Source of the DNA: an uncultured Luteimonas sp. | GTDB taxonomy: Bacteria; Pseudomonadota; Gammaproteobacteria; Xanthomonadales; Xanthomonadaceae | Reading direction: 5' to 3' | Assembly (NCBI GenBank): GCA_934541015.1 | Contig: CAKTDC010000027.1 | Span: 1-45,486 of the forward strand | Length of the DNA stretch: 45,486 nucleotides | Shown here: positions 11,804 to 14,901 of the stretch, in pieces | How positions within the stretch are numbered: position 1 is the first letter of the stretch | Layout: each line of letters opens with the position of its first letter | The notes under the pieces: model-generated | Database searches by the model: none | What the model was told of the DNA's origin: nothing | What the model saw: only the letters and a program-made list of their open reading frames with translations | Made by a program: the position numbers and the translations under genes

Positions 11804-13498
11804 TCAGCCCGCCAGCGCCTGCTCGTGCACCCCCGCCACGGCCCGGCCCGAGGGATCGGCCATGTTGGCGAAGCTCGCGTCCCAGGCGATCGCCGCCGGC
11901 GAGGAGCAGGCGATGGACTTGCCGCCGGGCACCGTCTCGGCCGCGGCCGGCGTGGGGTAGAACCGTTCGAACAGGGACCGGTACAGATAGGCTTCCCTGG
12001 TCTGCGGCGGGTTGAGCGGGAAACGCTTGTCCGCCGCCGCCAGCTCGCGGTCCGACACCTGCGCCTGCGCATACGCCTTGAGGCCGTCGATCCAGCCGTA
12101 GCCGACGCCGTCGCTGAACTGCTCCTTCTGCCGCCACAGGATCGACTCGGGCAGGTAGCCGTCGAAGGCCTGGCGCAGCACGCCCTTCTCCATCCGCTGC
12201 GCATCGCTGCGCGACTTGTCGACCATCTTGTACTTCGCGTCCATGCGCATGGCCACGTCGAGGAACTCGCGGTCCAGGAACGGCACCCGCGGCTCCACGC
12301 CCCAGGCCATCATCGACTTGTTGGCGCGCAGGCAGTCGTAGTTGTTGAGCGCGTCGAGCTTGCGGATCAGCTCCTCGTGGAACTCGCGCGCGTCCGGCGC
12401 CTTGTGGAAGTAGAGATAGCCGCCGAAGATCTCGTCGCTGCCCTCGCCGGAGAGCACCATCTTCACGCCCATCGCCTTGATCCGGCGGGCGAGCAGGAAC
12501 ATCGGAGTCGACGCGCGGATGGTGGTGACGTCGTAGGTCTCGATGTGGCGGATCACTTCCGGCAGCGCGTCCAGGCCTTCCTCGAGGGTGTACTCGAAGC
12601 CGTGGTGGACGGTGCCGAGCATCTCGGCGGCGACCTTCGCCGCAGCCAGATCCGGCGAGCCCTTCAGGCCGATGGCGAACGAATGCAGCCGCGGCCACCA
12701 GGCCTCGCTGCGGTCGCCGTCCTCGACGCGGTGGCGTGCGTAGCGCGCGGCCACCGCCGCCACCAGCGACGAATCCAGGCCGCCCGAGAGCAGCACGCCG
12801 TAGGGCACGTCGGTCATCAGCTGACGGTGCACGGCGGCCTCGAAGGCCTCGCGCAGTTCGGTCGGCGTCACCTCAACGCCCTCGACGGCGGCGTAGTCGC
12901 GCCACGGGCGCTCGTAGTACTTCGTCAGCTCGCCGGTCGCGGTGTCGTACCAGTGCCCGGGCGGGAACTGGGCCACGTCGGCGCAGTCGTCCACCAGCGC
13001 CTTCATCTCCGAGGCCACGCGCAGGCGGCCCTCGCGGTCGTGGCCCCAGTACAGCGGCACCACGCCGATCGGATCGCGGGCGATGATCGCGCGCCCCTGC
13101 GCGCCGTCCCACAGGGCGAAGGCGAAGATGCCGTTGAGCCGGTTCAGGAACGCGCCCGGATCGTCTTCCAGATACAGCGCGTTGATCACCTCGCAGTCGG
13201 ATTCGGTCAGGAAGCCGTAGGGCTGCGCCAGCGCCTCCCGGAGCTGGGTGTGGTTGTAGATCTCGCCGTTGACCGCCAGCGCCAGCCGGCCGTCGGAGGA
13301 CAGCAGCGGCTGCGCGCCGCCGGTGGGATCGACGATGGCCAGCCGCTCGTGCACCAGGATGGCGCCGGCGTCGTGGAACACGCCGCTCCAGTCGGGGCCG
13401 CGGTGGCGCTGCTTCTGCGACAGCTCCAGCGACTGGCGCCGCAGGGCCTGGATGTCGTCGCCGGGCTGCAGCCCGAAGATGCCGAAGATGGAACACAT
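11804..13498 (-). CDS. asnB: Asparagine synthase, glutamine-hydrolysing
   Basis: 564 residues of class B asparagine synthetase, which makes asparagine from aspartate, ATP and glutamine. The start at 13498 exposes Cys2 (MCSIFGIFG), the N-terminal nucleophile of the glutaminase domain; residues about 1-190 are that domain (RHRGPDWSGV, NGEIYNH), the rest is the synthetase domain with the ATP pyrophosphatase loop YGVLLSGGLDSSLVAAV and VLSGEGSDEIFGGYLY. A GGAG motif lies about 10 bases upstream. Length is close to E. coli AsnB. The gene is preceded at 13570-13709 by an Asn-rich leader peptide and intrinsic terminator (annotated separately), so expression probably rises when charged tRNA-Asn is scarce. 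It is convergent with the I78 gene, 68 bases away. Confidence 0.95.
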   Translation of the reverse strand: MCSIFGIFGLQPGDDIQALRRQSLELSQKQRHRGPDWSGVFHDAGAILVHERLAIVDPTGGAQPLLSSDGRLALAVNGEIYNHTQLREALAQPYGFLTESDCEVINALYLEDDPGAFLNRLNGIFAFALWDGAQGRAIIARDPIGVVPLYWGHDREGRLRVASEMKALVDDCADVAQFPPGHWYDTATGELTKYYERPWRDYAAVEGVEVTPTELREAFEAAVHRQLMTDVPYGVLLSGGLDSSLVAAVAARYARHRVEDGDRSEAWWPRLHSFAIGLKGSPDLAAAKVAAEMLGTVHHGFEYTLEEGLDALPEVIRHIETYDVTTIRASTPMFLLARRIKAMGVKMVLSGEGSDEIFGGYLYFHKAPDAREFHEELIRKLDALNNYDCLRANKSMMAWGVEPRVPFLDREFLDVAMRMDAKYKMVDKSRSDAQRMEKGVLRQAFDGYLPESILWRQKEQFSDGVGYGWIDGLKAYAQAQVSDRELAAADKRFPLNPPQTREAYLYRSLFERFYPTPAAAETVPGGKSIACSSPAAIAWDASFANMADPSGRAVAGVHEQALAG

Positions 13499-13536
13499 GC
13501 GGGGAAACTCCAGAACGTGGGGAGGTGCGTTGCTCC

Positions 13537-13550
13537 TTCCCCATGGGGAA
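13537..13550 (-). other. Perfect 14-base palindrome between attenuator and asnB
   Basis: TTCCCCATGGGGAA reads the same on both strands and could form a 6-bp hairpin or bind a dimeric regulator. It lies between the attenuator terminator and the asnB ribosome binding site. No known operator is recognised. Confidence 0.3.
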
Positions 13551-13569
13551 AGGCGGATTCGTGCCCACG

Positions 13570-13597
13570 AAAAAGCCCGCACCTTTCGGCGCGGGCT
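13570..13597 (-). terminator. Attenuator terminator of asnB
   Basis: In the minus-strand RNA a 10-bp stem (AGCCCGCGCC pairing with GGTGCGGGCT, one G-U pair) closed by a GAAA loop is followed by five U residues. It sits between a short Asn-rich reading frame and asnB, 71 bases before the asnB start, with no gene in front of it that it could end other than the leader peptide. It therefore acts as an attenuator, not as a normal 3' terminator. Confidence 0.88.
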
Positions 13598-13622
13598 TCG
13601 TTCGTGGCGCTTGTCGCTTCGC

Positions 13623-13709
13623 CTATGCGCGGGCCCGCGGCCGCGCACGATGGTTCGTGCCGCGATTATTGCGGTTGGCGTTGCTGGCGGGGGCGGACAG
13701 GCGGTGCAT
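13623..13709 (-). CDS. Asn-rich leader peptide of the asnB attenuator
   Basis: 28 residues with five asparagines within ten codons (codons 10, 12, 14, 15 and 19; AAC, AAC, AAT, AAT, AAC), in the middle stretch SNANRNNRGTNH. Asn in such density is very unlikely in a genome this rich in GC. The reading frame stops 25 bases before the attenuator stem. Codons 21-28 (13647-13626) can fold as a 7-bp hairpin (TGCGCGG / CCGCGCA) whose loop holds CGCGGGC (13639-13633); that loop can instead pair with GCCCGCG (13596-13590) in the 5' arm of the terminator. A ribosome waiting at the last Asn codon would cover the first arm and free the antiterminator, as in classical his/leu/thr attenuation. No name for an asn leader is known to me, so no symbol is given. 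Confidence 0.85.
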   Translation of the reverse strand: MHRLSAPASNANRNNRGTNHRARPRARA

Positions 13710-13717
13710 GGGGCGTG

Positions 13718-13747
13718 ACGCTACCTCAGTTGTGCCCCTGCCGGCAA
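13718..13747 (-). promoter_or_regulatory. Candidate promoter of the asnB leader transcript
   Basis: On the minus strand TTGCCG (13747-13742) and TAGCGT (13723-13718) are 18 bases apart. The -10 box ends 8 bases before the leader-peptide ATG, so the leader peptide may be read from a leaderless mRNA; a GAGGT at about 13 bases upstream would be too distant for a good ribosome binding site. Weak match, inference only. Confidence 0.35.

Positions 13748-13944: not shown

Positions 13945-14901
<957 letters not shown>

Follow-up and report, generated by a model that had tools for sequence, protein, structure and literature searches.

A predicted ribosome-mediated asparagine attenuator upstream of asnB in Luteimonas and related Xanthomonadales

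Leader-peptide attenuators of the trp, his, thr, leu, ilv and phe type are well established in proteobacteria. Each has a short open reading frame (ORF) rich in codons for the amino acid that the regulated gene serves, followed by mutually exclusive antiterminator and terminator structures, and a ribosome that reaches the leader stop codon favors termination. The charging of tRNA-Asn is sensed in the same pathway by the T-boxes of Firmicutes Asn genes, but these RNAs bind the uncharged tRNA directly. Here we describe an element upstream of asnB in a stretch of 45,486 nucleotides from an uncultured Luteimonas sp. (GCA_934541015.1, contig CAKTDC010000027.1; hereafter, the window). It shares the features of the proteobacterial attenuators listed above, but its amino acid is asparagine and its gene is asnB, and its antiterminator strand is formed by the end of the leader frame, where a protector hairpin holds it in its loop. 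From sequence comparison we consider it very likely that the element regulates asnB by ribosome-mediated transcription attenuation of the trp/his/thr type, with charged tRNA-Asn as the signal. This function was first suggested by a model that saw the DNA letters alone (the first-pass annotation), and is now supported by conservation of the leader, covariation in its hairpins and retention of the pairing strand.

All parts of the element are on the minus strand. The leader ORF (13623..13709) consists of 28 codons and a TAG stop, and encodes the peptide MHRLSAPASNANRNNRGTNHRARPRARA*. Codons 10, 12, 14, 15 and 19 specify asparagine (13653..13682; individually 13682-13680, 13676-13674, 13670-13668, 13667-13665 and 13655-13653). 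The intrinsic terminator, evident from the sequence and the alignment, occupies 13570..13597. Its stem (13597-13574, GCCCGCGCC/GGUGCGGGC) is closed by a GAAA loop, and five U residues lie at 13574-13570. Exactly 25 bases (13622-13598) separate the leader stop from this hairpin, and 71 bases separate the terminator from the ATG of asnB (13498). Frame, Asn codons and both spacings agree to the base with the first-pass annotation. That annotation also placed the terminator, its loop and its U residues correctly, although the stem it called a 10-bp GC stem contains eight G-C pairs, one G.U pair and an outer A-U pair. A generic terminator scan of the window reported no site at 13597-13570, we think because the stem continues into the U run.

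Two hairpins are formed by the second half of the leader ORF. The first (13645..13660, GCACG-AACCAU-CGUGC) has Asn codon 19 inside its loop. The second, a protector or anti-antiterminator hairpin (13626..13647), has a 7-bp stem, UGCGCGG/CCGCGCA, as originally proposed, although its loop, CCGCGGGC, has 8 nucleotides, of which seven had been given. Within it, the antiterminator strand CGCGGGC (13633..13639) is the complement of GCCCGCG (13596-13590) in the 5' arm of the terminator, as had been observed. The downstream gene (11804..13498; 564 amino acids) has a Shine-Dalgarno (SD) sequence, GGAG, at 13508..13511 (-5.9 kcal/mol with the anti-SD) and surely encodes glutamine-hydrolysing asparagine synthase B, judging from its score of 860.9 bits against NCBIfam NF006949 (cut-off 499).

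Relatives were aligned upstream of asnB, as the first-pass annotation had proposed. The resulting 201 upstream regions of the order comprise the window, 80 named loci, the closest among 450 asnB loci of a named genome collection, and 120 regions from other genomes, with some genomes present in both of the latter sets. The 120 were fetched from the 150 matches listed by an order-wide AsnB search, which found matching proteins in 215 of 299 genomes; the remaining 30 of these 150 were already given as loci and were not re-analysed. Members of the order that are covered include, by record title, Xanthomonas, Stenotrophomonas and Pseudoxanthomonas. When a leader is defined as a frame with at least three Asn codons, 190 of the 201 regions have one, nine do not, and two are not judgeable (L230, whose start is uncertain, and L231, with 95 bases upstream). 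In each of the 80 named loci, a frame ahead of asnB contains between 3 and 10 Asn codons, and the leader persists down to AsnB proteins that are ~71% identical. A terminator-like hairpin follows 188 of 189 frames, though a stricter terminator scan missed those of L045, L068 and L070. Two leaders situated more than 350 nt upstream (L145 and L149) were read by eye and are included among the 189 whose tails were compared with their terminator arms. In the tally of 201, L227 counts as lacking a leader and L009 as having one; both are excluded from the set of 187 leaders used below, L227 as a chance frame with no hairpin and L009 because of a run of N in its leader. Where a leader had more than one in-frame ATG (53 of 187), the most upstream was taken.

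Of the 201 regions, 175 have a frame of 10 to 60 codons with at least five Asn codons in the 350 nt that precede asnB. Such frames occur in 9 of 2278 flanking windows of this length and in 63 of 4020 dinucleotide shuffles. Over 173 distinct leaders, asparagine makes up 18.5% of residues. Anchored Asn positions alternate between AAC and AAT; for example, position -7 is AAC in 39, AAT in 31 and another codon in 11 of 81 leaders (L001-L080 and the window frame 13709-13623). In these 81 loci AAT accounts for 262 of 553 Asn codons in leaders (47%) versus 118 of 849 in asnB (14%). This surplus may reflect slower decoding or avoidance of structure.

In an alignment of 30 diverse Xanthomonadaceae, RNAalifold found two hairpins unaided, the protector and the terminator. 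Kinship among the sequences can inflate the shuffle statistics that follow. The terminator is 98% paired and has five pairs with changes on both sides, and its covariation score was reached in none of 500 shuffles. The protector is 90.7% paired, with compensatory changes (4 of 500 shuffles), and the first hairpin is 69.6% paired (3 of 500). The covariation originally named as a check for three hairpins is found in the terminator and the protector; in the antiterminator it is not significant within Xanthomonadaceae.

Peptides encoded by the leader tail vary between groups (MRVCD, RARA, AGD, GWAGV and RVGV), while pairing of the strand with its own terminator arm is kept, although this comparison is flattered by an offset selected to give the best pairing. 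Among 135 distinct combinations of tail and arm, duplexes of a tail with its own arm have a mean of -17.2 kcal/mol versus -14.7 for swapped arms, and none of 2000 permutations was as strong. When codons of the tail were permuted, the natural duplex was at least as good as 95% of permutations in 136 of 187 leaders. In L173, L145 and L149, a GCAGG in the leader is opposite CCTGC in the terminator, where the others have CCCGC, and the terminator 3' arm of L173 retained its G. Covariation of the antiterminator is confined to differences between clades. Complementarity and the permutation test together agree with the first-pass view that antiterminator and terminator are mutually exclusive.

To model partial transcripts, we masked 13 nt from the ribosomal A site and folded the RNA up to the terminator loop. 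With the ribosome stalled at the first Asn codon, the antiterminator had a probability above 0.5 in 183 of 187 leaders, and at the last Asn codon, in 147. With the ribosome at the stop codon it formed in none, by construction, as the strand is then under the ribosome. In the window, pairing of strand and arm had a probability of 0.0 in untranslated RNA and 1.0 with a stalled ribosome.

The proposed attenuator would operate as follows. The first nucleotide transcribed is probably the A of the leader's AUG, and a ribosome would trail RNA polymerase along the leader. When Asn-tRNA is ample, the ribosome would reach the stop codon and cover the antiterminator strand, or else depart, after which the protector hairpin would conceal the strand. 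With the strand unavailable in either case, the terminator (13597-13570) would form and transcription would end. When Asn-tRNA is scarce, the ribosome would stall on the Asn codons and the protector hairpin would be opened. The freed strand (13639-13633) could then pair with the terminator 5' arm (13596-13590) while the 3' arm is still to be transcribed, and polymerase would continue into asnB.

Several results weigh against this attenuator. The antiterminator, 87.6% paired in the 30 Xanthomonadaceae, is nearly invariant, and its covariation is not significant (54 of 500 shuffles). Within classes of arms, the advantage of own over swapped arms is also not significant (194, 319 and 596 of 2000 permutations), and in L145 and L149 the terminator arm shows no pairing preference for its own tail over others. 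The tails of 51 of 187 leaders fall short of the 95% cut for permuted codons. The window is among them, as 8% of its codon-permuted tails pair as well, although no base-shuffled tail does. Untranslated RNA forms the antiterminator in 159 of 187 leaders, the window not among them, and thus termination would not be the default in most relatives. Equilibrium folding with the complete terminator favors that terminator despite a stalled ribosome in the window (probability about 1.0) and also in many relatives, where the antiterminator is ahead in 90 of 187 leaders if the ribosome stalls at the first Asn codon and in 52 if it stalls at the last. The first-pass claim that a ribosome at the Asn codons frees the antiterminator agrees with folding of partial transcripts; that annotation overlooked both the equilibrium advantage of the complete terminator and the probable leaderless start described below. 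Given this advantage, the switch has to be kinetic and set by the order of co-transcriptional folding; we infer that the antiterminator would form first and block the terminator at the decisive moment. Finally, relatives that keep asnB and lack a leader, which had been named as contrary evidence at the outset, account for nine of the 201 regions (L222-L229 and L233). All have AsnB proteins 66-68% identical, and the remaining judged regions carry the leader, including L232 (AsnB 66% identical), which has a divergent version with four Asn codons and a terminator. In two of the regions without a leader that were read, L222 and L233, the sequence before asnB resembles, by its appearance, the end of another gene.

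Four other explanations of these data can be weighed. The first-pass features could reflect a chance Asn-rich frame before an ordinary terminator, and frames with at least five Asn codons do occur at rates of 0.4% (flanking windows) to 1.6% (shuffles). We give this explanation almost no weight, given that 190 of 201 regions carry the leader and that AAC and AAT exchange synonymously. The hairpin might instead be a constitutive partial terminator or an RNA-stability element that sets basal asnB expression with no response to asparagine. The strong conservation of the terminator and its stability at equilibrium fit this idea, yet it leaves the clusters of Asn codons and the matching leader strand unexplained, and we regard it as improbable.

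We are equally doubtful that the nascent leader peptide senses free asparagine, or some other ligand, and itself causes ribosome arrest in the manner of TnaC and SpeFL, in place of slow decoding of Asn codons. Many Xanthomonas leaders do share the end ANNRARPMRVCD, as such a peptide might, but the peptide end differs between groups while the GC-rich pairing strand stays, and the shared feature is asparagine, at shifting positions. Unlikely, but deserving somewhat more credence, is a role of the terminated leader as an independent small RNA or as a trans-acting peptide, which could exist alongside attenuation. Work on Sinorhizobium meliloti reports such products of the trp leader, the small RNA rnTrpL and the trans-acting peptide peTrpL (PMC7298713), and the predicted short leaderless transcript of asnB resembles rnTrpL; the N-termini of the asnB leader peptides, however, vary widely between groups. 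Ribosome-mediated attenuation in response to tRNA-Asn charging therefore remains our preferred explanation, and, if correct, adds asparagine to the amino acids sensed in this way, with comparative support across an order.

The transcript of the leader is probably leaderless, with its 5' end at the leader AUG. In the window, the inferred promoter has a -35 element TTGCCG (13742..13747) and, after an 18-nt spacer, a -10 element TAGCGT (13718..13723), both on the minus strand; promoter spacing and SD energies predict a start at 13709, the A of the AUG. A consensus promoter scan of the window did not list this promoter. Across the 187 leaders, with positions counted from the ATG, TTG occurs at -38..-34 in 154 (5% of control positions), TA at -14..-10 in 127, and both boxes together in 122, versus 52 of 13927 control positions. 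A C or T at -1 precedes the ATG in 156. The distances of these boxes approximate those of canonical -35 and -10 elements for a transcript that starts at the A of the AUG. SD energies of leaders have a median of -2.8 kcal/mol, and 61 of 187 leaders reach -4 or lower (for shuffled sequences, -3.3 and 41%); for asnB the median is -6.6 kcal/mol, with 181 of 187 at -4 or below. The window leader is an exception at -6.9 kcal/mol (20 nt upstream), a value that comes from a GAGG overlapping the -10 region, 13-14 nt before the ATG. It is the promoter spacing, together with the lack of SD sequences beyond chance, that points to a leaderless mRNA. The S. meliloti trp leader, as stated in its description, is a precedent for a leaderless leader, which here is only predicted; it differs in sensing Trp and in belonging to an alphaproteobacterium (PMC7298713). 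If transcription begins with the first base of the leader start codon, ribosome loading, polymerase start and an AAU-rich sensor (47% AAU versus 14% in asnB) would be locked together. Such an RNA could be a compact natural system for studying how a ribosome on leaderless mRNA keeps pace with polymerase.

To examine how tRNA-Asn is charged in the order, we searched 40 genomes, of which 20 have the leader (15 known from upstream regions and 5 from the covariance model), nine have AsnB with no or an unjudged leader, and 11 lack AsnB. All 20 leader-bearing genomes have AsnRS, and none has GatB or AsnA. Eight of the nine genomes with no or an unjudged leader have AsnRS and none has GatB, and absence of GatB alone does not predict a leader. 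A search for AsnA in 38 genomes gave one weak match, in a genome without AsnB (G006). In bacteria with the attenuator, charging of tRNA-Asn should thus depend solely on free asparagine, whether made by AsnB or taken up, and this is what would give the sensor its meaning. If the attenuator functions as proposed, such bacteria could couple asnB to the charging of tRNA-Asn and would need no dedicated regulator to do so. On balance we favor, though with clear reservation, the broader proposal of an undescribed Asn-specific attenuator that acts on a leaderless mRNA and generally governs asnB in this order, whose AsnB-bearing members apparently charge tRNA-Asn only from free asparagine. GatB occurs in 10 of the 11 genomes without this AsnB versus none of the 29 with it, and two routes to Asn-tRNA therefore seem to exist within the order.

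At gathering cut-offs, Rfam has no match, either leader or riboswitch, in the window and 10 other loci, and in a permissive search the best leader score in the region was 23.7 bits, for Thr_leader (cut-off 55). A T-box or a known riboswitch was ruled out as an explanation, as there was no match to the T-box covariance model and none to Rfam at gathering. No asparagine attenuator is described in the accessible portions of PMC2965389, PMC4833913, PMC1262725, PMC8632094, PMC1183508, PMC7298713 and PMC3771888, and none appears in Rfam or among the papers listed by open-access searches on Asn or leader-peptide attenuators and on Xanthomonas transcription starts, with subscription literature mostly outside the scope of the search. 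One of these sources, on small RNAs of Xanthomonas, names an AsnB2 without its leader in the text available (PMC3771888). Another predicts that uORFC-8-2, which precedes cysS in Rhodobacterales, is a ribosome-mediated attenuator for cysteine. Like the asnB element, it concerns a less usual amino acid, but its gene encodes a tRNA synthetase and its hosts are alphaproteobacteria (PMC8632094).

Beyond the order, a class-wide AsnB search at E <= 1e-120 gave matches in 4 of 185 genomes, three of them from the order, and at E <= 1e-110 AsnB was found in 54 of 398 genomes of the phylum. Of 27 of the latter loci scanned upstream, five belong to the order, three had no start found and 19 were readable from outside it. 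By eye, these 19 (AsnB ~60% identical) have no Asn run like that of the order. Several AT-rich frames with many Asn codons, which were not checked for terminators, do occur there (L263 and L271 with 5, L277 with 7 and L269 with 10), so that absence of the leader outside the order is not proven. The L269 frame, upstream of an AsnB that is 61% identical, has 50 codons and extends from 166 to 13 bases upstream, which leaves little space for a terminator before asnB.

A covariance model of the asnB leader has matches in 55 of 60 genomes, many of them weak, below about 40 bits. Eleven of its loci were examined: six are asnB leaders, four are ilvC or ilvD leaders, and one is an unrelated hairpin. 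The ilvC (L245, L246 and L255) and ilvD (L249) leaders, which also come from this order, have frames rich in Ile, Val and Leu, followed by terminators. By eye, these four share the layout of the asnB leaders, including complementarity of tail and arm, but serve other genes.

The leader frame is so small that annotation easily overlooks it. The asnB frame is itself open upstream as far as a GTG at 13648 (13648-11804, minus strand), so that a gene caller could start asnB within the leader and thereby hide the attenuator. The adjoining ORF on the other side (13945-14901, plus strand) is divergent, and therefore the terminator belongs to asnB transcription; that it terminates an upstream gene was ruled out on this ground. 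This divergent ORF has no Pfam or NCBIfam match at an E value of 0.001 and encodes a long stretch of glutamines close to its end.

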